DNA from: Paramicrobacterium fandaimingii
GTDB taxonomy: Bacteria; Actinomycetota; Actinomycetes; Actinomycetales; Microbacteriaceae
Assembly: GCF_011751745.2 (NCBI RefSeq)
Contig: NZ_CP061170.1
Span: forward strand, 3,100,001 to 3,164,000
Direction of reading: 5' to 3'
Length of the DNA: 64,000 bases
Position 1 is the first letter of the stretch. Every line of letters begins with the position of its first letter. Positions 48,681 through 60,791 of the stretch are shown piece by piece. Below the pieces are notes generated by a model. It did no database searches. It was not told where the DNA came from and saw only the letters and a list, made by a program, of their open reading frames with translations. Both the position numbers and the translations under genes were made by a program.

Positions 48681-48755
48681 ATCCGTCACACTACCAAGCA
48701 CGATTTCACGCCGATGTTCGCGGCTCCGGCGTTGACGTTTTCGCCGACACTCGTG

Positions 48756-48839
48756 GTGCCGACACGAGGATAGTGTGCTGGTAGGAGGACGTTTTCGCCA
48801 AAGCATCCTCGCGCCAGCACAGTGCCCTCGTCTCGGCAC
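48756..48839. repeat. Nested-hairpin intergenic repeat, copy 1
   Basis: Outer arms GTGCCGACACGAGG (48756-48769) and CCCTCGTCTCGGCAC (48825-48839) enclose inner arms GTGCTGG (48775-48781) and CCAGCAC (48814-48820) and the core GAGGACGTTTTCGCC. Copies 2 (50243-50326) and 3 (60707-60791) share the same order of arms and core. An extra GACGTTTTCGCC at 48734-48745 suggests a partial tandem unit. It lies between the VOC remnant and the YdcF-like gene. Confidence 0.82.
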
Positions 48840-48906
48840 TGTCGAATCGACAGAACTGATCTTTTGTGATGACATCACTATCGTTCACGTGACATCATTG
48901 CAGTCG

Positions 48907-49500
48907 ATGGAGTCTGTCGGAACTGCAATCCCAGGGTTTGTCGACGCGCGCGCCGGAGAGATACGTTCTGCCGACGTCATCTTCGTGTTCGGCACTCGGT
49001 ATTGGTCCCCCGCGGAAGTTGCCGCGTCGCTGTATCTCAAAGGAATGGCCCCGAAGATAGTGCTCACGGGAGGCCCTTCACGACACCCTCGCGGATTGGC
49101 AGAATCACGCATTCATTATGACCTGCTTCGGACTGCCGCAGTTCCCGGTGATGACATTCTCAGTGAAGAGACCTCCCGCCATACCGGGGAGAATGTAGCT
49201 CACGCCCTTCCTCTACTCAACCAGCTTGGATCGATCCGTTCCGTTATTGCCGTCGTAAAGTGGTTTCACCGACGCGCACTCATTACGCTCGCTCAGCAGA
49301 TCCCTTCTCTCGAGCGCATCTATGCAGCCGACTACGAGCCTTTCGACCTGGACTCCCGGTCGACACTCTCCCGTTCGACCTGGCAAACGTCATGCCTGGA
49401 ACGCGTCGATCGAGAGACGCAATACCTGCGTTCGCTCAGGGACGAGGGAACAGATCTCCTCACTCGGACGAACAGCGGATGGACACGTACGCAGGACTAA
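48907..49500 (+). CDS. YdcF/ElyC/SanA-like (DUF218) protein
   Basis: A 197-residue protein. IRSADVIFVFGTRYWSPAEV is the first Rossmann-like strand and loop, KIVLTGGPSRHPRGLAESRI the second, and DDILSEETSRHTGENVAHAL the E-x-x-S-x-x-T-x-x-N motif of DUF218 proteins, then VIAVVKWFHRRALITLAQQI. The family is linked to envelope or small-molecule metabolism, with no defined reaction. There is no membrane helix, so it resembles cytosolic YdcF. The start is uncertain; the ATG at 48907 excludes residues that overlap the repeat element. Confidence 0.75.
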   Translation: MESVGTAIPGFVDARAGEIRSADVIFVFGTRYWSPAEVAASLYLKGMAPKIVLTGGPSRHPRGLAESRIHYDLLRTAAVPGDDILSEETSRHTGENVAHALPLLNQLGSIRSVIAVVKWFHRRALITLAQQIPSLERIYAADYEPFDLDSRSTLSRSTWQTSCLERVDRETQYLRSLRDEGTDLLTRTNSGWTRTQD

Positions 49501-49631
49501 GCTGCGTTTCATTCCGCGGTACGCGAATGGCCGCGGCATCCATAAGGTTCCGGCGGCCACCCGCGGAACGCGCCGCGTCGCATTGTCTCGAGAGAATGGC
49601 GTCGAAGATCATCGTCACGGGTGTGGGACGT

Positions 49632-50003
49632 TCAGCCGAGATCGTCGACCGTGGTCAGGCAGAAGGGATGCCCTGCCGGGTCGGCGAAGACGAGACATCG
49701 ACCGGCGTTCGGCTGGAAATCGTATTGTCGCGCGCCGCAGCGGATCGCCCACTCGGCTGAGGTCGCGAGGTCGGTCACGAAGAAATCAAGGTGGAGCAAC
49801 GACGAATCTTCGGGCCATTGCGGCTCCCGGTAGTCGGGCACCCACATGAAGTCCAGTCGTCCACGGGCGCTTCTCATCGATGCGCTATCGCGCTCGGCAG
49901 CGAACGTGACCTCGCCTCCCGTGAGTTTTGCGTAGAAGTCGGCGAGCGCGAGCGGGTCGGGACAGGCAAGCGTCGTCGTGCTGTACCGAATTCCGGTGTC
50001 CAT
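49632..50003 (-). CDS. VOC family (glyoxalase-like) protein
   Basis: A 123-residue single-module VOC protein: IRYSTTTLACPDPLALADFY at the N-terminus, then SSLLHLDFFVTDLATSAEWA and RCLVFADPAGHPFCLTTVDD, where DPAGHPFCL is the usual C-terminal signature. Activity unknown. It has a decayed paralogue at 48564-48680, and the 14 bases at its 3' end (AGCCGAGATCGTCG) recur at 50333-50346, so the region has seen duplication. The longer frame upstream runs through the NUDIX remnant and repeat copy 2 on the other strand. Confidence 0.82.
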   Translation of the reverse strand: MDTGIRYSTTTLACPDPLALADFYAKLTGGEVTFAAERDSASMRSARGRLDFMWVPDYREPQWPEDSSLLHLDFFVTDLATSAEWAIRCGARQYDFQPNAGRCLVFADPAGHPFCLTTVDDLG

Positions 50004-50104
50004 GCACGCGAGGCTACCGCACCAGTGACCTTGCCCGACGGATTGCTCGGCTGCCAGAGAACGCAGCACAAGGCAACGTCTCGCAGTTCCGTAGTGTGGT
50101 TCGC

Positions 50105-50437
50105 ATGGGAACGAGCACAGAAACGGAATGGACGACGCTGTCACGAACGGTGTCGTACCGCGGTCGGATGACGATCGTCGACCATGCCGTGCGACTCGGC
50201 GACGGCACAGAGACGTCTTACGACTCGGGACGCAATGACAACGTGCCGGCACGAGGGCAGAGTGCCCGCACGAGGACGTTTTCGCCAGAACGCCCTCGCC
50301 CCGGCACAGTACCCTCGTCTCGGCACTGGTTAGCCGAGATCGTCGATCCACCCCTCTTCGTCGCCCGAGCTGCAGGCGCGGCGAACGAGGCGCTTGCACA
50401 GCTCGGTGGAGCACGCAGATCGTCGGCACGCTTGTAG
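50105..50437 (+). pseudogene. NUDIX hydrolase remnant interrupted by repeat copy 2
   Basis: An open frame of 110 codons. The first 42 residues, MGTSTETEWTTLSRTVSYRG then RMTIVDHAVRLGDGTETSYD, read like the N-terminal strands of an ADP-ribose pyrophosphatase-type NUDIX protein. Residues 47-74 come from the hairpin repeat. The tail DPPLFVARAAGAANEALAQL resembles the C-terminal helix of such proteins. The NUDIX box is absent, so it cannot be active. I read it as a deleted gene with the repeat at the junction. Confidence 0.55.
50243..50326. repeat. Nested-hairpin intergenic repeat, copy 2
   Basis: Outer arms GTGCCGGCACGAGGG (50243-50257) and CCCTCGTCTCGGCAC (50312-50326) pair with two mismatches. 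Inner arms GTGCCCGCACGAGGACGTT and AACGCCCTCGCCCCGGCAC pair with four. The core GACGTTTTCGCC (50275-50286) is identical to copy 1. It interrupts a NUDIX gene remnant. Confidence 0.82.
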
Positions 50438-50535
50438 GCGCGGATTACCGAGTGTTACCGTTATTGTCTCGTTGGCTCGGGTATTGGGCGGGCACGACGA
50501 CTCAGCACTGTCCGCCCACCACGAGGAGTGAACCC

Positions 50536-51333
50536 GTGAACGATACATTCTCAAGCATCCGACCTCACTCGCCGCACACTTCCCGCGCCGGAGAGGTGGC
50601 TCTTGTGACCGGCGCAGCACGAGGCATCGGTACCGAGATCGCCCGCCAACTCGCAGCCGCAGGGATGATCACCTACGTCGGGGCCCGCGATCCTCACGCT
50701 GCCCGTCGAACAGCTGATGCGTTGTGCGCCGAAGGGTCAGACGCACGCCCTATGACTCTCGACGTGACCCGCCCTGGCGATGTCCGCTCCGCAGCGGAGC
50801 ACATCGAGGCAGAGCATGGCCACGTGGACGCGCTCGTAAATAACGCGGGAATCGTTGTCGAATGGGGCATACCCGTACCCGACGTCACTGTGGAGCAGAT
50901 GCGCGATGCATACGAGGTTAACGTTTTCGGCGCTGCAGAAATGCTGCACGCGTTCGCCCCGCTGCTGCGCCGCGCGCCGTCCGCCCGAGTTGTCAATCTG
51001 TCCAGCCCCCTCGGATCGTTGACTCTACTTGGGAACGCCGACCACCCCGTCGCGCAGCGCGGTCTGCTGGCATACAGCTCTTCCAAAGCCGCGCTGAATG
51101 CCGTCACTCTGCTGTTTGCACGAGCTCTCGCACCGGACGGAACCAGAGTCAATGCAGCAAATCCGGGACTTGTAGCGAGCGATTTGAACCGGGACTCTCC
51201 GTATCCACGCGGCATCCGATCCGCGGCTGATGGAGCGCGGGTTCCGGTCAAACTTGCGCTCGCGACAGATGGCCCAACCGGATGCTTCCTCGGCGACGAT
51301 AACGGAGATGCGACAGCGCACGTGCCGTGGTGA
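50536..51333 (+). CDS. Short-chain dehydrogenase/reductase
   Basis: A 265-residue classical SDR. VALVTGAARGIGTEIARQLA is the nucleotide loop (TGxxxGIG), DALVNNAGIVVEWGIPVPDV the NNAG motif, RVVNLSSPLGSLTLLGNADH the catalytic Ser region, and LLAYSSSKAALNAVTLLFAR the Y-x-x-x-K pair. Substrate unknown; VTVEQMRDAYEVNVFG suggests the common carbonyl reductase type. The GTG at 50536 has GAGGAG 7-9 nt upstream. The C-terminal SADGARVPVKLALATDGPTG is normal for the family, so the gene looks intact. Confidence 0.9.
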   Translation: MNDTFSSIRPHSPHTSRAGEVALVTGAARGIGTEIARQLAAAGMITYVGARDPHAARRTADALCAEGSDARPMTLDVTRPGDVRSAAEHIEAEHGHVDALVNNAGIVVEWGIPVPDVTVEQMRDAYEVNVFGAAEMLHAFAPLLRRAPSARVVNLSSPLGSLTLLGNADHPVAQRGLLAYSSSKAALNAVTLLFARALAPDGTRVNAANPGLVASDLNRDSPYPRGIRSAADGARVPVKLALATDGPTGCFLGDDNGDATAHVPW

Positions 51334-51381
51334 CGCCGTGTGCGCAACGGCTCAGATGCGAGCGATCGGGAATAGTGACAC

Positions 51382-52482
51382 CTAGCGCGGGGCGACGCCA
51401 AGCAGACGACGGCCCTCCGGACGCACTGCGAGCTCCGACGGCACAGGCGGAGTCTCGACAGCGGGGTCGTGCAGATGACACGCCACACTGCGGTGCGGCT
51501 CGTCATCGCCGAACACCGTGCCGCCGAGCTCCGGCACGAGCTGCGCGCACGCGTCGACCGCATACGGGCACCGCGTTCGAAAGCGGCATCCGCTCGGCAA
51601 CGACAGCAGATCCGGCGGCGACCCGGGAATGCCGCCGAGCTCACGCTTTGGCCCCCGCAGCGGCGGGAACGAGTGCAGCAGTCCAGCCGTGTACGGGTGC
51701 CGCGGCTCGTGGTAGACCTCGCGGCTTCCGGCATCTTCGACGATCTCGCCCGCATACATGATCGCGATGCGGTCGGCCAGCTCGATGAGCAGCGACACGT
51801 CGTGCGTGATGAAGATCACCGAGAAGCCCAGCTTGTCTTTCAGCTCGATGATCTGTTCAACGATCTGCCGCTGCATCACCACGTCGAGCGCTGTCGTCGG
51901 CTCGTCCATGATCACCAGCTCAGGCTCGAGAGCCAGCGCCATCGCGATCATCACACGCTGACGCATGCCGCCGGAGAGCTGGTGCGGATAGCTGTCGAGC
52001 CTGTCGGTCGAGATCCCCACCATCGTGAGCAGCTCGGCGGCCCGCTCGCGCATCGCCGAGCGCGACATCTTCTCGTGCGCGGCGATGCCGTCGATCAGCT
52101 GTTTGCCCACGCGGTAAACGGGATTGAGCGCGTTCATCGACCCCTGGAAGACAATCGCCGTGTCGCGCCAGCGCTGCGCCCGCAGCTGCTTCTCGCTCAT
52201 GCGCAGCAGGTCGCCTGACTCGCGGCTGCGTGAGCTGGTGAACATCACCTCTCCCCCGGTGATCACGCCGGGTGGAGGCAGCAGCCTTGTCGCCGCGTAG
52301 GCGAGCGTCGACTTGCCGCATCCACTCTCGCCGGCGAGCCCGAGGATCTCGCCCCGGTGCAGCGTCAGGTTCACGTTCGACAGTGCGCGCACCGCGTCAT
52401 CGTCGTACCCATAGTCGACAGAGAGGTTGCGGATCTCAAGCAGCGGCTCGGCCTGCGTGCGCTGCGGTGTGGTGATGGTCAC
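51382..52482 (-). CDS. Oligopeptide/oligosaccharide ABC transporter ATP-binding protein (OppD type)
   Basis: A 366-residue ATPase of the Opp/Dpp family. Walker A is GLAGESGCGKSTLAYAATRL, the signature PHQLSGGMRQRVMIAMALAL, Walker B ELVIMDEPTTALD, the switch His VIFITHDVSLL, and the C-terminal oligopeptide-transporter extension has CRFRTRCPYAVDAC with the four-Cys-type cluster of this family. The GTG at 52482 lies 6 nt after GGAGGTCACC and overlaps the permease stop (GTGA). It is the last gene of a six-gene operon with a GH3 beta-glucosidase, so the cargo is probably a glucan oligosaccharide. Confidence 0.92.
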   Translation of the reverse strand: MTITTPQRTQAEPLLEIRNLSVDYGYDDDAVRALSNVNLTLHRGEILGLAGESGCGKSTLAYAATRLLPPPGVITGGEVMFTSSRSRESGDLLRMSEKQLRAQRWRDTAIVFQGSMNALNPVYRVGKQLIDGIAAHEKMSRSAMRERAAELLTMVGISTDRLDSYPHQLSGGMRQRVMIAMALALEPELVIMDEPTTALDVVMQRQIVEQIIELKDKLGFSVIFITHDVSLLIELADRIAIMYAGEIVEDAGSREVYHEPRHPYTAGLLHSFPPLRGPKRELGGIPGSPPDLLSLPSGCRFRTRCPYAVDACAQLVPELGGTVFGDDEPHRSVACHLHDPAVETPPVPSELAVRPEGRRLLGVAPR

Positions 52483-53528
52483 GCGGTGACCTCCTCTGCT
52501 GTCTCTGCGTTCGCGCCCGAGCGGGCGACAGTGGTTTTCGGATGCTGCGGCTCGCCGCCATGGTAGACCGGCGTGAAGCCGATGCGCGCCCTGATCTTCT
52601 TCTTGCGCAGCAGAGCGGCCGAGGCCGCCGTGTTGCGCAGCCGCGGGTTGACGAACTCGTCGATGCCGAAGTTGATGAGCGTGAGCGATGTGCCGACGGC
52701 GGCGATGCACAGCCCCGCGGGCACGAACCACCACCATGCGCCGAGCACGAGCGCCTGGCTCGACTGCGCCCAGAACAGGATGGTTCCCCAGTTCCACTCG
52801 GAGATGCTCGTGACACCAATGAATGCGAGCGTCACCTCGGAGAGAATGGCGAAGATCGCCGTTCCGATGAAACCCGAGGCGATGATCGCCGTGAGGTTTG
52901 GCATGATCTCGAAGAAGATGATGCGCCACATCGGTTCGCCGTTGGCGCGAGCCGCCTCGACGAAGTCACGCCCCCGAATCGAGAGCGTCTGCGCTCGAAG
53001 CACGCGCGAACCCCACGCCCACCCGGTGAGCGCGATGATGAGCGCGATTGTCACTCCGCCTGCCGACGGCACGAGAGCGGCAACGATAATGATCAGCGGC
53101 AGCGCCGGGATGATCAGGAAGACGTTGGCGAGCAGTGAAAGCAGCTCGTCGCCCAGCCCGCCGATGAAACCGGCCGTCACGCCGACGATCACCGAGATCG
53201 CCGTGGCGAGCACGCCGGCAAGCAGACCGACGAGCATGACGCCACGCGTGCCGACGAGCAGCTGCGAGAAGATGTCCTGCCCCGTGTTCGTTGTGCCGAG
53301 CCAGTGGTCTGCGCTCGGTGGCTGCAGTGAGTCTTGTGTGACGGCGTTGGGGTCGTGCGGGGCAATCCAGGGCCCGATCACGGCGAGCACGAGAAAGAAC
53401 GCGAGCATGATGAGCCCGATGAGAGCCTTGCGATTCTGCAGAATGCCGAGCGAGCGTTTGCCCTTCGCCGCAGCTTTCTCTGCGGGCGCTACATCGGTGA
53501 GACCAATGGGATCTGCCTGTACGGACAT
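52479..53528 (-). CDS. Opp-type ABC transporter permease (OppC type)
   Basis: A 349-residue permease. The N-terminal FFLVLAVIGPWIAPHDPNAV and DHWLGTTNTGQDIFSQLLVG are hallmarks of OppC/DppC subunits, and the docking loop is RGRDFVEAARANGEPMWRII then FFEIMPNLTAIIASGFIGTA. A charged tail of about 45 residues follows the last helix, somewhat longer than usual. It is 3 bp downstream of the OppB-type gene and overlaps the ATPase start. Confidence 0.92.
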   Translation of the reverse strand: MSVQADPIGLTDVAPAEKAAAKGKRSLGILQNRKALIGLIMLAFFLVLAVIGPWIAPHDPNAVTQDSLQPPSADHWLGTTNTGQDIFSQLLVGTRGVMLVGLLAGVLATAISVIVGVTAGFIGGLGDELLSLLANVFLIIPALPLIIIVAALVPSAGGVTIALIIALTGWAWGSRVLRAQTLSIRGRDFVEAARANGEPMWRIIFFEIMPNLTAIIASGFIGTAIFAILSEVTLAFIGVTSISEWNWGTILFWAQSSQALVLGAWWWFVPAGLCIAAVGTSLTLINFGIDEFVNPRLRNTAASAALLRKKKIRARIGFTPVYHGGEPQHPKTTVARSGANAETAEEVTA

Positions 53529-53531
53529 CGA

Positions 53532-54512
53532 TCAGCCCTCCACTCTCGTGCGCGGGTCAAGGAATGCATAGACGAAGTCGGCGAGCATGCTCGCGACAAG
53601 CACCGAGATCGTGACGACAAGGAACGCCCCCTGCATGAGCGGGTAGTCCTTCGAGCCGATTGCCTGAAAGAGCATGTAGCCGATGCCGGGGTAACTGAAC
53701 ACCATTTCGGCGACGAGCGTGCCTCCGACGATGAAGCCGAGCGACAGCGCGAACCCGGAGATGCTCGGCAGCACGGCGTTGCGCGCGGCATAGCCGAACA
53801 TCACCTTTCGCTCGGGAATACCCTTCGCTTGAGCGACGGTGACGTAGTCTTCGCTCGACACCGTCACCATCATGTTGCGCATGCCGAGAATCCATCCAGA
53901 GATCGAGCTGATGATGATGGTCAGGGCGGGGAGGATGCCGTGGTAGATCGCCCCGCCGATGAACTCCATGTTCCACCCGGGCAGCGTGCCGGGGTCGTAG
54001 CCGCCCGCAGCGGGGAAGACCGGCCACGTCACGGCGAACAGGGCGATTGCGATGATGCCGAGCCAGAAGTAGGGAATGGCAGAGAAGAAGTTGGCGATCG
54101 GCAGCAGGTTGTCTGCCCAGGTGCCGCGTCGCCAGCCGAGCCCGACACCCGCGAGAGTGCCGAGAAGAAAGCCGATGATCGTCGAGAGCCCGACGAGCGC
54201 GATCGTCCACGGGAGCGACTGCGTGAGAATCTGACTCACGGGGGTGGGAAAGTACGTGAACGAGATGCCGAGATCGCCGTGGAACAGATTGTTCAGGTAG
54301 GCGACGTAGTCCTCCCACAGGGTGCGATTCTCATCGAGGCCGAACAGCACATACAGCGATTCGACAGCATCCGTGTTGAGTCGCCCCTGAAATTTGTTGA
54401 TCAGGGACTGCACGGGGTCGCCAGGCAACATGCGGGGAATGAAGAAGTTGAGTGTGACGGCCGCCCACGCTGTGAACAGATAGAAGCCGAGTCGGCGCAG
54501 AAAATACTTCAT
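53532..54512 (-). CDS. Opp-type ABC transporter permease (OppB type)
   Basis: A 326-residue permease. [20 protein letters not shown] then [20 protein letters not shown] is the OppB N-terminal signature. A periplasmic loop ([20 protein letters not shown]) follows the early helices, and the docking loop is [20 protein letters not shown] then [20 protein letters not shown]. Its start overlaps the stop of the OppF-type ATPase. Permeases for cello-oligosaccharides in other bacteria belong to this same Opp branch. Confidence 0.92.
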
Positions 54513-55540
54513 GCTTGTGCCGCCCCTGGCTCCTTGGCCCCGAACGCGGCTTCGCGTTCGGCCGCGGCGTCATCTGCATAGAGCCAGCACGCCGACTCCT
54601 GGCCGTCGTCACCGGCGAACATGGGCGGTGCGTCTGTGCGGCAGCGCTCCATGGCAAACGGGCAGCGTGGATGAAACCGGCATCCGGTCGGCGGGCTGAT
54701 GAGGCTCGGTGGCTCCCCCGTCGCTTCGGTCTTCTCGAGCTCTTCGAGCCGGTCGGCGTCGGGCGCAGAGGCAATGAGCAGCTGGGTATACGGGTGTCGA
54801 GGATGCTGCGTGACAGCCTCGCTCGGACCACGCTCGACGATCTGCCCCGCGTACATCACGAGCGTGCGATCGGCGAAGTACCGGGCAGACGCGATGTCGT
54901 GAGTGATATAGAGAACAGCGAGGTGGAAGCGGTCTTTGAGGTCGCGCAGCAGGTTGAGAACGCCGATGCGAATCGACACGTCGAGCATCGAAACGGGCTC
55001 GTCTGCAAGTAGCACCTCGGGATCCGCTCCGAGAGCACGGGCGATGGCGACGCGCTGACGCTGACCTCCCGAGAGTTCGTGGGGGAACTTCTCGAGGTAG
55101 CGCTCGGGAGGAGTCAGGTCGACGCGCTCGAGCAGCTCACGGAGCATCCGCTCCCTCTCGTCTGTCGTCATGCGCCCTCGATGGATGGTGAGAGAGCGTG
55201 TGAGCACATAGCGCACGCGGTGAATGGGATTGAGCGATGCGAACGGGTCTTGCAGAATCATCTGCACGCGGCGGCAGTACGCCCGAAACTTGCGGCCGAA
55301 CCGAGCGGTGACCCGGCGTCCGTCGAACAGCACGTCACCAGCTGTGTTCGGCATGAGCTTGGCGAGCAGACGGGCGACCGTCGATTTGCCCGAGCCCGAT
55401 TCGCCGACGAGCGCTACCACTTCGCCTGCGTGAAGCTCGATGTCGATTCCGTCGACAGCGTGAACCACACGACGTCCCGCCCCCTTCACGGGGAAATGCT
55501 TTGTGAGGTCCCTCGCGGCGAGAAGTGGCTCGTCACTCAT
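54509..55540 (-). CDS. Opp-type ABC transporter ATP-binding protein (OppF type)
   Basis: A 343-residue ATPase. Walker A is [20 protein letters not shown], the signature [20 protein letters not shown], Walker [17 protein letters not shown], switch His [13 protein letters not shown], and the C-terminal cluster is [21 protein letters not shown]-terminal [20 protein letters not shown] is the OppF hallmark. It lies 67 bp downstream of the binding-protein gene and overlaps the OppB start by 4 nt. Confidence 0.92.
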
Positions 55541-55607
55541 CGTTCCTGCCTTCCTTGTGTGCGTGAAGCAGCAGCCGGGGCGGGCGCGAACCCGCCCCGG
55601 CAGGGTG

Positions 55608-57266
55608 CTACTTCGCCGGTGTGAGCTTCATCACGATCATCGAGATGCTGGGCTGCGTCGGCTGCGGCACGGCATACGGGTCGTCTTCACTCGGGAATCC
55701 CGTCCAGTACTTCGTGCTGTACTCCGCGCCGATCGGGCCGGCGGCCATCGGAATCGCGGGCACTTCTTCGACGAAGATCTCTTGAATGCGGTCCATCATC
55801 TTCTGGCGTGCGTCCTCGTCTGGCGTCACAGCGTAATCGGCGAGGAGCTGCGTGACTTCGTCGTTCTCGAACCGGCCGAAGTTCCACGATGCGCCCTCGC
55901 CGATCGGCTTGAGCTGAGCTCCGTCCATGATGTTCGAGTAGATGTCCCACGGGGTTGCCCCGGTGTTCGTCCAGTGCAGCGATGCCTGGAAGTCGCCCTC
56001 GGCGAGCGCGCTCGTCCACGCGTCGACGGTGGGGGTCTCGACTGTTGCGTCGACACCGATCTGCGACAGGTTGTCTGCCATGATCTGCAGGCTGGCGAGG
56101 TAGTCAGACCAGCCGGCCGGGTCGATGAATTCAACGGTCACGGCGTTACCGTCAGGGTCAAGGAGCTTGTCGTTCGAGTCCCAGGTGTAACCGGCATCCT
56201 CGAGCACGCTCTTGGCTCCATCGACGTCGACCTTCTGCGTCTTGCCCTTGTACTTCTCGGCTGTGAATGCGTCACCGGCGGGCGAGGGCAATCCGGTGAC
56301 GGTGTCAACGAGACCTTTGAACCCGGAGTAGCCCTGCTTGTGCACGGCACCTCGGTCAATCACCATGTTCGCCGCCTTGCGCATTGCCACGTTGTTGAAT
56401 GGCGCTTCCTGCGTGTTGAGGAACAGCGCGTCGATGCCGAGGCCCGTGGGCATATATGCCTTGTTGGTATCGGACTTCGAGATGTAGGTCTTCTCCATGT
56501 CGGGAATGAACACGTAGCTCCACTGGGCCGAGCCAGAGAGCAGCGCCGTCAGCTGAGCATTGTTATCGGTGTAGGAGGTGTACCGAATCTCGGGCACAGG
56601 AGGTTGACCGCCCCAGTAATCGTCGTTCGGCTCAAAGGAGATCACCTGCTGGGTCCACGACGTCAACGTGTACGGCCCGGTTCCCACTGGGTCCTTGTTC
56701 GTGTCTTTCGTCGGGTCATCCATCTTCGACCAGATGTGCTCGGGAACGATGAACGTGCCGAGCACCTTCGTCTTGTTGAGCAGCTGCGACGAATCGAACG
56801 TGACGGTGACCGAGTCGCCGTCGACGGAGATGTCTTTGTACCCGATGGCATTCGCGTTGAAGCCCTCGGTGTCTTTCACAAGATTGAACGTGTATGCGAC
56901 GTCGTCGACGGTCATCTTCTCGCCATCAGACCAGGTGACGTCGTCGCGAGGGGTGATGGATACCGACGTGTAGTCGTCGTTCCACTCCCACGACTTCGCG
57001 AGCCATGGTTCTGGCTCTGTTGCGGGATCCGTCGGGTTCCACTGAGCGAGCGGCTCGTACATGAGCCAGGTATAACCGAGACTGGATGCCGCGGATGTGG
57101 CGATGAACGGGTTGTTGTTGTCTGTCTGCGGACCATTCGGCATGCCGATGGTCAGGGGGTGCTCGGCACCGCCCCCATCGTCGCCTCCCGAACCGCTGCA
57201 GCCGGTGAGTACCAGGGCGAATGCTGCTGCCCCGACGGCCAGTTTGGCCATCATTCCTTTCTTCAC
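55608..57266 (-). CDS. Extracellular solute-binding lipoprotein (family 5, Opp/Cbt type)
   Basis: A 552-residue binding protein. [20 protein letters not shown] then [13 protein letters not shown] gives a lipobox LTGC and linker. The mature part starts [20 protein letters not shown] and shows [37 protein letters not shown] and [19 protein letters not shown] segments of family 5. Members of this family bind peptides, but those beside glycosidases bind oligosaccharides. The GTG at 57266 lies 6 nt after AGGAGG and overlaps the GH3 stop (GTGA), tying the two proteins together. Confidence 0.92.
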
Positions 57267-59887
57267 TGTGTGCCTCCTTGCACATTGCGCCCGAGTGGGC
57301 GGTGGGGTTTTGTGAGGGTGATTTCGAGTGGAAGGTTTGTGCTCGAGCTGCCGACACGAATGCGATAGGGGCCGAGCGGATGCTCCCATGACGACGTTGC
57401 GACATTCCACGTCTCGAACACGCGGCGCGGCAGCCTCACGTCGACGATGCCTGTTGCTCCGGCGGCGACGGTCGTCTGCGCGAAGCCGCCAAGCCACCGC
57501 ACAGGGCGCGAGGGGTCGCCCGAGGCATCCTCGATATACGCCTGAACCGTCTCGCACGACGACCGGTCGCCGATATTCTGCAGCTCAACCTCGATGCGCA
57601 CGTCGCCGTCTGCGCTCTCGATCTCGCGCACGGCGCTGTAACGCCACGTTCCGTAGCCAAGCCCGAAGCCGAACTCGCGGGCCGGCGTGGCGCTGCCGGC
57701 GAGCCAGCCGCGATAGCCGACGTGCACGCCCTCGGCGTAGTCGACGATGCCGTCAATCGGCACCGCGTTCGGAACAGGGCAGTCGTCGAGACGGGCGGGC
57801 AGCGTCCACGGCAGCCGCCCGGCGGGCTCGGTGCGGCCGGTGAGCGCGTCGACGAGGCCGGTGCCGCCCTCTTGCCCCGGCAGCCACCACCACAGAACGG
57901 CTGACACGTCATCGATCCACGGCAGCAGCACGGGGCCGCCCGCGTTCACGATCACGATGGTGGGGGTCCCTGTCGCTGCGACGGCACGCACCATGTCGTC
58001 CTGCCGTCCGGGCAGATCGATGTTCTGCCGATCCCAGCCTTCGGACTCGGTCTCTTCGTTCGTGCCGACGATCACGAGGGCGACATCGGAGTCGCTCGCT
58101 GCCGCGACGGCATCCGCGATCTCCTCCTCGAGTGAAAGGGCATCGGGCTCGTGCCGCAGCGCAAAGCGCACGAAGGTGCCGTAGCCGTCGGCGTGCACAA
58201 CCTGAAGGCGCGCGTCGATGTGCACATCGAACGGCACGTCGCGTGCAAACAGGCGCGCAGGGCCGTCTGGGTTGTTGGCGCTCGAATTGAGAATCACCTC
58301 TGACCCGGCGAGCACATCAGACTCCGACACAATCTCGTCATTGAACCGGATGCTGTGGGCGCCGCAGGTACCCACGTCAATGCGGTGCGTTCCTGCCGCG
58401 AGTCGCACGCGTGCCCGAACCCGCGCACTGCGCGCGCGGCTGTCGACGTGGCGGTTCCAGGCCTCGCCGCCCGGTGCAACGACCGAATCTCCGAGCGGAG
58501 AGCCGTGGTCGTCGAGAAGTGTGAGCTCGTAGCCGGGTTCGCCGTCTGGCGTCTCGACGAGGGCCGGGTCGATGCCCGGTGCGTGCGCTCGCGCCGAGCC
58601 GCCACGCGAGACGGTGAGCTGGGCCGCGGGGAAGGCAGCGCGCACGGCGTCTGCGGGGTGCGTCGCGTATGGCGCATGAACGAATGCACTGCCGCCTCCC
58701 TGAATGAACGGGTCGACGACGTTCGGGCCCAGAAGAGCGATGCGGCGTGGCGCGGCGCCGTCTGTGCTCGTGCCTGCGCTGCTGTCTGTGGCGAGCGGCA
58801 GCACTCCGTCATTGCGCAGCACGACGATCGAACGTGCGACGGCTTCGCGAAGCAGCGCTCGGGTTGCCTCGGCCGAGTGGGTGTCGGGGTCGACGCCGTC
58901 ACGCGGCACGTCGACGCCAGGGGGAACGGATGCCTCGCGTCCGATGGCCCCGACGCGCTCGGCGAGCCGCAGCATCCGCTCGATCTTGTCGTCGATTGTG
59001 TCTTCGCTCACCTGGCCGCTGCGCACAGCGTCGAGAAGGTTCTGCTCCCACGGCCCGCCTGGCCCCGGCATCACGAGGTCAAGGCCCGCGTTTGCGCTCG
59101 CGACGGTGGACTGCGTGGCAAGCCAATCGCTCACGACAACGCCGTCGAATCCCCACTCGTTCTTCAGCACGTCGACGAGCAGGTGTGCATGCTCCGTTGC
59201 GAGGTTCGATTCTGTGCCGTCATCGATGCGGTTGTACGCCGCCATGACGCACCACACGCCCACGTCACGCACGAGTGCCTCGAACGGTGCGAGATACACC
59301 TCGCGGAGTGCGCGCTCGTCGATGCGGGCGATGTAGCTCGTTCTGTCGGTCTCGGACTCGTTGCCGACGTAGTGCTTGACGCAGGCTGCGACACCGTTGC
59401 GCTGAATGGCGTCGATGTACGGCGTGGCGAGTGCGGTCGTGAGCAGCGGGTCTTCCGAGAAGCACTCGAAGTGCCGCCCACCGACGGGTGTGCGCTGCAG
59501 ATTGACGACGGGAGCGAGCACGACGTCGACGTTCTTGCGTTTGGCTTCACGCGCGACGAGTGCGCCGAGGTCGGCAGCGAGCTGCGGGTTCCACGTCGCG
59601 GCGAGCGCCGAGGGGCTCGGCAGCTGGGCCGATGGCGTGAGTTCTTCGTCAACCCCGCGCACACCGATGGGGCCGTCGGAAACGACAATCGCGCCGAGGT
59701 CGAGTTCTGCAACCTCGTGGAGTGCCCAGGGCGTCGCTCCCGTCAGCAGCCGAATACGCTGTTCCAGCGGCACGGCGCGAAGACGCTGCCGCAGCTCGGC
59801 ATCCGACCCGATGGGCTGATGCTCGTTGTCTGGCGCTTCGGCGCTGGCATCCGTTTGGCCGCCAGCCGCGGTGGGGGCAATGCTCAC
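57263..59887 (-). CDS. GH3 beta-glucosidase with PA14-like insertion and fibronectin III-like end
   Basis: An 874-residue intracellular beta-glucosidase with no signal peptide. VVLAPVVNLQRTPVGGRHFE and AAVCHKHYVGNESETDR-like CVKHYVGNESETDR contain the substrate-binding KHYVGNE, and GVVVSDWLATQSTVASANAG carries the nucleophile Asp (about residue 250). A beta insertion near residues 470-590 (TCGAHSIRFNDEIVSESDVL) is PA14-like, and the C-terminal 110 residues form the FnIII-like domain (SCETVQAYIEDASGDPSRPV). It would cleave imported cello- or gentio-oligosaccharides. First gene of the importer operon; GTG start with GGAGAG upstream. Confidence 0.92.
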   Translation of the reverse strand: MSIAPTAAGGQTDASAEAPDNEHQPIGSDAELRQRLRAVPLEQRIRLLTGATPWALHEVAELDLGAIVVSDGPIGVRGVDEELTPSAQLPSPSALAATWNPQLAADLGALVAREAKRKNVDVVLAPVVNLQRTPVGGRHFECFSEDPLLTTALATPYIDAIQRNGVAACVKHYVGNESETDRTSYIARIDERALREVYLAPFEALVRDVGVWCVMAAYNRIDDGTESNLATEHAHLLVDVLKNEWGFDGVVVSDWLATQSTVASANAGLDLVMPGPGGPWEQNLLDAVRSGQVSEDTIDDKIERMLRLAERVGAIGREASVPPGVDVPRDGVDPDTHSAEATRALLREAVARSIVVLRNDGVLPLATDSSAGTSTDGAAPRRIALLGPNVVDPFIQGGGSAFVHAPYATHPADAVRAAFPAAQLTVSRGGSARAHAPGIDPALVETPDGEPGYELTLLDDHGSPLGDSVVAPGGEAWNRHVDSRARSARVRARVRLAAGTHRIDVGTCGAHSIRFNDEIVSESDVLAGSEVILNSSANNPDGPARLFARDVPFDVHIDARLQVVHADGYGTFVRFALRHEPDALSLEEEIADAVAAASDSDVALVIVGTNEETESEGWDRQNIDLPGRQDDMVRAVAATGTPTIVIVNAGGPVLLPWIDDVSAVLWWWLPGQEGGTGLVDALTGRTEPAGRLPWTLPARLDDCPVPNAVPIDGIVDYAEGVHVGYRGWLAGSATPAREFGFGLGYGTWRYSAVREIESADGDVRIEVELQNIGDRSSCETVQAYIEDASGDPSRPVRWLGGFAQTTVAAGATGIVDVRLPRRVFETWNVATSSWEHPLGPYRIRVGSSSTNLPLEITLTKPHRPLGRNVQGGTQ

Positions 59888-59941
59888 GTTCTCTCCACTC
59901 TGAGGAACCGATGTTGACTCGTAGGGGAGACTGTAGCAATA

Positions 59942-59961
59942 CTTACAAACAAGTTAGTAAG
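59942..59961. promoter_or_regulatory. TetR-type operator between the GH3 operon and tetR gene
   Basis: CTTACAAACA-AGTTAGTAAG is an inverted repeat matching at 8 of 10 positions (outer CTTAC/GTAAG perfect). It lies 55 bp upstream of the GH3 start and 64 bp upstream of the TetR start, the usual position for a TetR protein to repress both. Flanking AT-rich sequence (GCTTTTTCTGTCACATTTTG) probably holds the promoters. Confidence 0.7.
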
Positions 59962-60024
59962 CTTTTTCTGTCACATTTTGGTAACAGCGCTGTACGTTAA
60001 TGTGAGCGATGAGAGGAACTTCGC

Positions 60025-60726
60025 ATGGGGAGCAAGACCGATGATGGCCGCATCGTGCCCGCCGCGGCGCGCGTAGCGAAACCGCAGGCACGCACGGCGG
60101 CGAAGCGTGAAGGCATCCTCAAAGCTGCGCTGTCGGTGTTCGGCACGCGCGGCTATAACAACGCCGCTCTCGCCGAGATCGCCGAGCAGGCTGGCATGAC
60201 CCACGCGGGCGTTCTGCACCACTTCGGATCGAAGGAGGGCCTGCTCGTCGCCGTGCTCAAATACCGTGACGGCGAAGAGACGAGCGGAGTCGAGGCCCGC
60301 GCCCAGGTGGAAGGCCCTGCGTTTCTCGAGCACATGCTCGAGACCGTCATCGAGAACATGTCACGCCCTGGCGTTGTGCAGACCTACGCCGTGCTCTCCG
60401 CAGAGTCGGTCACCGACCGCCACCCGGCACAGGAGTACTTTCGCGGCCGGTTCGCCGGGCTGCGCCGCAAGATCGCAGGCGTCATCGCGGGAGTCGCCGG
60501 GCGCGAGATAGACGACGAGGTGAAGGATGCCGCAAACGCGGTGATCGCCGTGATGGACGGCCTTCAGGTGCAATGGCTGCTTGAACCGGATGCTGTCGAT
60601 ATGCCGCGTACCGTCGCGATGATTCTCGACGAGCTCATCGAGCGCCTCTCCACGGGCACGCCGGCACCATCCGCCGTTGACCGCGCATCGCATTTGGCGC
60701 CCGGTCGTGCCGAGACGAGGGCATAG
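60025..60726 (+). CDS. TetR family regulator
   Basis: A 233-residue regulator. The HTH is AKREGILKAALSVFGTRGYN then NAALAEIAEQAGMTHAGVLH with HHFGSKEGLLVAV, the classic TetR start; the rest is a helical ligand domain (SRPGVVQTYAVLSAESVTDR, then AANAVIAVMDGLQVQWLLEP). It is divergent from the GH3/importer operon and most likely senses a glucoside or its product. GAGGAAC lies 7 nt before the ATG. The last codons (RAETRA) are supplied by repeat copy 3, so its natural stop was replaced by the element. Confidence 0.9.
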   Translation: MGSKTDDGRIVPAAARVAKPQARTAAKREGILKAALSVFGTRGYNNAALAEIAEQAGMTHAGVLHHFGSKEGLLVAVLKYRDGEETSGVEARAQVEGPAFLEHMLETVIENMSRPGVVQTYAVLSAESVTDRHPAQEYFRGRFAGLRRKIAGVIAGVAGREIDDEVKDAANAVIAVMDGLQVQWLLEPDAVDMPRTVAMILDELIERLSTGTPAPSAVDRASHLAPGRAETRA

Positions 60727-60791
60727 TGCTGAGACGAGGACGTTTTTCGAGAGAACGTCCTCGTCTCAGCACAGTTTCCTCGTTTGCGCAC
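60707..60791. repeat. Nested-hairpin intergenic repeat, copy 3
   Basis: The inner arms GTGCTGAGACGAGGACGTT (60726-60744) and AACGTCCTCGTCTCAGCAC (60754-60772) pair perfectly over 19 bp with a 9-nt loop. The outer arms GTGCCGAGACGAGGG (60707-60721) and CCTCGTTTGCGCAC (60778-60791) pair imperfectly. This is the best preserved inner stem of the three copies. Its left arm forms the last codons of the tetR gene; the inner stem could act as that gene's terminator. Confidence 0.85.

Follow-up and report, generated by a model that had tools for sequence, protein, structure and literature searches.

A four-motif palindromic DNA element dispersed in Microbacteriaceae and its association with a DUF559 nuclease gene

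Introduction

What are the nested palindromes that recur three times within 12 kb of the Paramicrobacterium fandaimingii genome, and what could have spread them? They lie in a 64,000-nucleotide stretch (the window; G000:C1:3100001-3164000, G000 being the window's genome of 3.62 Mb in a single contig), where an earlier note, made from the sequence alone, had seen either a small non-autonomous palindromic element or a structured RNA family. In this work, we describe the anatomy and distribution of these elements and a gene for a DUF559 protein, a predicted nuclease, that adjoins them. We consider it probable that the elements are small, selfish palindromic DNA repeats of Microbacteriaceae, comparable to repetitive extragenic palindromic (REP) sequences, with the DUF559 nuclease as their partner.

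Results

The three window copies proved to lie exactly where the earlier note had placed them, and the nested-hairpin plan that it had described turned out to be more regular still. The unit is rigid, 84 or 85 bp long, and consists of a motif (15 nt), a spacer (4 nt), a second motif (15 nt), a centre (16 or 17 nt), an inverted motif (15 nt), a spacer (4 nt) and a last inverted motif (15 nt); a 15-nt motif thus occurs four times, twice in each of the two inverted arms, with a 19-nt period. In the window's genome the motif is close to GTGCYGNNACGAGGA. Copy 1 (48756-48839, 84 bp) has its motifs at 48756-48770 and 48775-48789, its centre at 48790-48805 and its inverted motifs at 48806-48820 and 48825-48839; copy 2 (50243-50326, 84 bp) has them at 50243-50257 and 50262-50276, 50277-50292, and 50293-50307 and 50312-50326; and copy 3 (60707-60791, 85 bp) at 60707-60721 and 60726-60740, 60741-60757, and 60758-60772 and 60777-60791, no strand being assigned to any of them. 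They align over 88-89 nt with 58 invariant columns. Folded alone, copies 1, 2 and 3 reach -62.4, -52.1 and -73.1 kcal/mol (z-values of -6.3, -4.3 and -9.0 relative to dinucleotide shuffles), and for each copy none of 200 shuffles was as good. A stray copy of the element centre (TTGACGTTTTCGCC) was observed at 48733-48746, a few bases before copy 1, and is perhaps a scrap of another element.

Covariance models were built from the three window copies (R1), from 20 copies (R2) and from 44 copies (R3, 85 columns). Copies 1, 2 and 3 score 89.5, 88.9 and 90.6 bits with R2 and 74.2, 74.2 and 77.5 bits with R3. The earlier note had proposed such a search for tens of copies elsewhere, with a lack of further copies, or their explanation as ordinary terminators, as the outcome that would speak against it; this outcome did not come out, and the search was positive in related genera. 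The search with R1 brought up additional copies in the window's genome as well as in three of the other four genomes of the genus, with none in G002. R2 found seven elements in the window's genome and at least one element in at least 34 of the 299 genomes of the family and at least 16 of its 85 genera, a lower bound since 14 candidates were scored per genome. With R3, 17 of 394 genomes of the class had matches (11 candidates scored per genome), 15 of them in the same family and two (G580 and G633, E 1e-5 and 3e-8) in another, where they may reflect either chance or a wider distribution. When 150 candidates were scored in ten genomes picked for their matches, R3 gave 21-66 both-strand matches in each, which corresponds to about 10-33 elements. 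The element sequence has diverged among ten related genomes while its geometry is the same, and its distribution between species is patchy. The model was specific, with one match (E 0.1) in 452 kb of other species' loci and one (E 0.075) in 800 kb of G173, G206 and G000 away from known elements. Exact-pattern scans of genome contigs and viral contigs with subfamily patterns gave no match, nor did similarity searches with copy 3 in plasmids and phages, with an element array of G173 in plasmids, or with an element of G622 in phages. Rfam returned no match above the gathering cut-off in the window and five element-bearing loci, the weak microRNA matches lying far below it.

The gene of interest was first met while checking the neighbours of elements in G173 and G206, which belong to two genera: in both, a DUF559 gene has elements on both sides. 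A tblastn search over the loci placed the same gene beside elements in G000, G003, G267, G114, G544, G131, G687 and G318, and forty more loci around element matches yielded five DUF559 genes, those of G544 and G131, already known, and new ones in G167, G111 and G680, all three bordered on both sides. In total, the gene adjoins elements in 13 genomes of six genera. R3 recognises both borders in nine of them (G173, G206, G114, G544, G131, G687, G167, G111 and G680); G267 and G318 have degenerate second border copies, identified by eye, and G000 and G003 a 5' copy only. The layout is fixed at ten loci, with one element 86-186 nt before the gene and another -12 to +23 nt after it. For the loci added last (G167, G111 and G680), the distance on the 5' side is 95-110 nt, as set by the start codons chosen, and in G167 the last 57 nt of the frame lie within the 3' element. 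In G198, about 470 nt separate an element from a more distant DUF559 relative (<30% identity). One further tblastn match (L228) was discarded as an artefact of the stop-to-stop query; it lies within and beside an element.

No such DUF559 gene was detected at E 0.01 in the 800 kb of control stretches. In 51 large loci, all five DUF559 genes (four of them independent) lie within 150 nt of an element, where 9.4% would be expected for a randomly placed gene and 104 of 865 called genes are found. Flanking elements within 200 nt on each side are present at four of these 865 genes, of which two are DUF559 genes. The other two are a 3-demethylubiquinone methyltransferase-like gene and an EamA transporter gene (L073:7316-7792 and L107:6952-7875).

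The window's genome carries an unbroken DUF559 copy at G000:C1:2383114-2383977, adjoining an acetyl-CoA-synthetase-like gene, and the same neighbour is present in G003, G267 and G173. Between G173 and G267 this neighbour is 94% identical, whereas the DUF559 proteins are 55% identical and their border elements are of types C and B, respectively; gene and border type therefore seem to have changed together at this locus, a single case. At L078, L086, L110 and L242, the DUF559 gene likewise lies beside orthologous acetyl-CoA-synthetase-like genes (77-96% identical), with border types that differ (A, B, C).

As modelled, the DUF559 protein shows an AbiEi-like N-terminal half and a nuclease half resembling Vsr and I-Bth0305I (EDxHD), and the nuclease residues E, D, H and D are invariant among the DUF559 proteins. 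The G173 protein is 99% identical to one of Mycetocola zhujimingii. There are 665 homologues at E 1e-10, and among the matches listed (120 of 665) the database names are "endonuclease domain-containing" or "AbiEi family antitoxin domain-containing". Distant relatives comprise one gene on a Tsukamurella plasmid (29%) and one in an unannotated phage record (29%), with none in the viral contigs. On the plasmid of Tsukamurella tyrosinosolvens, an inverted repeat with 33-nt arms (L260:1780-1851) was observed about 95 nt before the start of the AbiEi-annotated relative; this is the place of the 5' border element in the DUF559 loci, and R3 has no match there.

The positions of 89 elements were analysed on 51 loci chosen for carrying them, with a simple gene caller of our own and leaving out two weak elements (L074 and L076). 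Convergent genes flank 43 of them, tandem genes 35 and divergent genes 5, and 6 lie inside reading frames; overall, 160 of 910 gene junctions are convergent, the proportion being 34 of 66 among element-bearing junctions and 124 of 810 among the others. Convergent junctions have a median length of 166.5 nt with an element and 32.5 nt without. The 78 elements that face a stop codon do so at a median distance of 24 nt (42 within 30 nt, 58 within 60 nt). When all elements were pooled, no T-run was seen, none of 20 flanking positions exceeding 0.24 bits. Elements also form arrays, such as five within 640 bp in G173, and two of them abut with zero bases between. In the Mycetocola-like genomes G173, G111 and G267, types B and C alternate, 14 of the 15 neighbouring pairs within 60 nt being B-C (p 0.001). 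Heterotypic B-C pairs were noted at L072, L107, L240, L241, L243, L246, L259 and L073. In the window, the frame of a TetR-family gene (60025-60726, + strand) now stops at a TAG (60724-60726) inside copy 3, and copy 2 has a glyoxalase-like gene (49632-50003, - strand) on one side and a short-chain dehydrogenase gene on the other.

Comparison of related species revealed sites with and without the element. Copy 1 is also present at the orthologous site of G003. Copy 3 is missing at the corresponding place there, where the stretch is 82 nt shorter and the flanking bases differ too. At another locus, an element of G000 lies between two convergent genes whose G004 counterparts are separated by 9 nt according to our own gene calls; the extra G000 stretch is about 200 nt and exceeds the element length. 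Conversely, an element precedes the first of the two genes in G004; the stretch aligns poorly with G000, where no element was found. The six elements inside reading frames are read as three independent insertions: one in a MobA-like gene (in G000 and G003, not in G001 and G004), one in an FAD/Fe-S oxidase gene of G001, which is missing from the eight of ten homologues compared in frame (all but L148 and L153), and one in a DUF4956 gene, within its tail (G000 and G003, as well as G004 in a more decayed state). The 89 elements showed no excess of target-site duplications of 2-9 bp over shifted controls. A scan of about 1 Mb of element-bearing loci gave no single element halves clearly above control, apart from two additional complete elements and a degenerate border copy (L110:9429). 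The Y1 transposase family PF01797 was ruled out as a partner by its absence from all 17 element-bearing genomes examined (one of 13 other genomes has it), and no transposase was present among 39 Pfam-scanned proteins, families other than Y1 not having been searched for.

Next to the window copies, G003 lacks most of a sugar-transport/glycoside-hydrolase region and a DUF218/glyoxalase/dehydrogenase stretch (window 48840-51385 and 51985-60612), where remnants of tetR and of a 366-aa gene persist; this region next to the elements was lost or gained in a lineage-specific way. Recombination between copies was rejected as the cause of this 12-kb difference because its breakpoints, near 51984 and 60613, do not coincide with the copies and the lost genes have left remnants.

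Covariation was studied over the 44 copies of R3. The structure pairs 79.3% of the cells, compared with only 39-45% for slid structures, and two-sided changes amount to 284 vs 127 +/- 11 in shuffles. Where the left-arm motifs differ, the inner right motif agrees with the inner left one (138:50, p 1e-10), and the outer right motif shows no preferential agreement with the outer left one among the family copies (72:92, not significant); the spacers match too (2.55 of 4 vs 1.79 in shuffles). Over the family, then, the inner palindrome is specifically paired, and the outer motifs behave as extra copies of a lineage-specific motif. The balanced arm mismatches of the earlier note thus hold for the inner arms of the family and, for the outer arms, not beyond motif similarity; within the copies of genus g1 alone, neither test is significant (30:21 and 26:25). 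Orthologous copies of G000 and G003 differ by 1, 0, 0 and 3 two-sided vs 9, 2, 10 and 7 one-sided changes; for a G000/G004 pair the counts are 5 vs 15. Conservation is higher in the arms than in the flanks in two of these five comparisons, similar in two others and lower in the fifth. As two-sided changes are few at orthologous sites and arm conservation is uneven, the covariation looks more like family turnover than like an RNA conserved at each site, the evidence for constraint being mixed. On the sense strand, G-U pairs and A-C mismatches count 84 vs 62 in the 35 tandem-gene elements (p 0.08) and 110 vs 105 in the 43 convergent ones. With outer arms that lack specific pairing and G-U counts that lend no clear support, a plain structured RNA, the second suggestion of the earlier note, is therefore less likely.

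Discussion

Taken together, the dispersal of the elements, the sites without them in sister species, the in-frame insertions, the arrays and the bordered gene favor the earlier suggestion of a small non-autonomous palindromic element. The elements are dispersed and they are associated with the DUF559 gene; from this we infer that the nuclease mobilises them, possibly as follows. The AbiEi-like half would bind the 15-nt motifs, and two or four subunits would assemble on the palindrome, as a duplex or as an extruded hairpin. The nuclease half would then cut at or near the palindrome edges, and repair or replication would re-insert copies elsewhere without target duplication. The source unit would be the bordered DUF559 gene, with the scattered elements as non-autonomous passengers. 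Selection would remove most insertions in genes and spare those behind stop codons.

The closest known systems are the REP sequences, their mosaics, termed bacterial interspersed mosaic elements (BIMEs), and the "REPtrons" formed with the transposase TnpA-REP, or REP-associated tyrosine transposase (RAYT). These systems share three traits with ours: palindromes dispersed behind genes or between convergent genes, alternating types in mosaics, like the heterotypic neighbours in three of our genomes, and a coding sequence flanked by palindromes, most of whose copies are located in other parts of the genome, like the nine doubly bordered DUF559 genes (PMC8266576, PMC3733652). The mechanism of dispersal of REP-like repeats is itself presented as still open (PMC8266576). 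The differences are as clear. A REP unit measures 20-40 bp with a stem of 5-13 bp, in contrast to 84/85 bp with four motifs (PMC3733652, PMC8266576). The conserved GTAG/CGTC tag is absent from our elements: among their 178 flanks, CGTC is the outside 4-mer in 10, and GTAG is not among the 12 commonest. Finally, the REPtron enzyme is a Y1 (HUH) transposase, whereas here the predicted partner is a Vsr/EDxHD-like nuclease with an AbiEi-like half. The elements thus resemble REP/BIME in lifestyle but lack the tag, the size and the Y1 transposase that define these. The main text of a 2013 survey does not contain the words Actinobacteria or actinomycet.

Rickettsia palindromic elements (RPEs) are similar in their in-frame placement inside protein genes (PMC10969869). 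They are, however, about 150 bp long and fall into ten families, and the part of the source used here names no partner nuclease (PMC10969869); in our set, only 6 of the 89 elements lie inside frames. As for the enzyme, the EDxHD homing endonuclease I-Bth0305I has the nuclease fold predicted for the DUF559 protein and the invariant E, D, H and D residues, and it is described as dimerising on a target of nearly 60 bp, a scale close to that of this palindrome (PMC3943268). The DUF559 gene differs in being bordered by its presumed own site and in encoding an additional AbiEi-like N-terminal half; no intron was seen around it, none having been sought.

Several observations weigh against a partnership of this kind. 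The DUF559 genes were met through the elements, so that the share of such genes lacking an element is gauged by the 800 kb control; none was present in the window, in several fetched element loci of G001, G004, G089, G622 and G666, or in the short loci, one or two per genome, of about 25 other genomes with matches. Of the nine second borders, those of L213 (E 0.015) and L273 (E 0.048) are weak, the G680 gene is frame-broken, and double flanking alone is not unique to DUF559 because two other genes share it. Protein and element similarity are correlated over 13 loci (Mantel r 0.63, p 0.002), but the correlation falls to r 0.23 (p 0.06, 12 loci) without the orthologue of G003 and stands at r 0.29 (p 0.03, 11 loci) without G003 and L055. 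Similarly, border elements are more alike than the other elements of their genome in G206 and G167 and weakly so in G173, but not in G111 and G680. There was no clean 85-bp empty site among the sites compared, as the flanks are altered too. Lastly, neither copy 1 nor copy 2 of the window follows a called stop codon closely.

The promoter of an AbiEi antitoxin gene carries inverted repeats that the antitoxin itself binds. The elements might accordingly be operators or binding sites of the AbiEi-like half, serving autoregulation at the gene and, where scattered, acting as decoys or chromosomal sites that the protein does not move. We regard this explanation as unlikely, if the most serious of the alternatives: the 5' border element is at a plausible operator place and the N-terminal half does match AbiEi, but elements also lie at the 3' end of the gene, scattered copies follow the stops of unrelated genes, divergent junctions are rare (5 of the 83 elements outside frames) and the nuclease residues are invariant.

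It is less likely still that the elements are bidirectional terminators or stabilisers of mRNA 3' ends, retained for that function. Such a role would fit the excess of convergent junctions, the short distance to stop codons, the stability of the hairpins and the two comparisons of orthologous copies in which the arms are better conserved than the flanks. It fits poorly with the lack of a T-run, with so few elements per genome relative to thousands of genes, with the element missing at a related junction whose genes persist, with three insertions inside genes and with the three comparisons in which the arms are no better conserved. The elements may nonetheless have a side effect on termination.

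We find it improbable that the elements are miniature inverted-repeat transposable elements (MITEs) of an insertion sequence with an unrecognised transposase, the DUF559 gene being a passenger, since, small, inverted, dispersed and patchy as they are, they show neither target-site duplications above chance (which some known MITEs also lack) nor single halves clearly above control in about 1 Mb of element-bearing loci, nor a transposase within the searches described above.

Returning to selfish repeats with a DUF559 partner, we give about even chances to the more specific proposal that this is a second, unrelated REP-like system, in which a protein with an AbiEi-type DNA-binding half and a Vsr/EDxHD nuclease half would recognise the four-motif palindrome and disperse it with no target duplication. 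The titles and abstract openings of the literature that we searched contain no description of such repeats in Microbacteriaceae, nor of DUF559 or Vsr-like genes bordered by palindromes. If the proposal is true, each nuclease clade would have its own motif type, and types resident in one genome would form the BIME-like heterotypic B-C pairs; in the Mycetocola-like genomes, type C borders the genes of L242 and L273 and type B that of L110, although L242 and L110 are one locus. Repeat dispersal would then be driven by a homing-type EDxHD nuclease outside introns. The palindromic-repeat systems compared, as far as the sources used cover them, depend on Y1 (HUH) transposases or lack a known enzyme (PMC8266576, PMC3733652, PMC10969869), so that a palindromic-repeat family with a Vsr-like nuclease partner would be evidence that repeats of this genome-wide kind can arise with another enzyme. 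The proposal also gives the large DUF559 clade a testable function, together with protein-site pairs for testing it.

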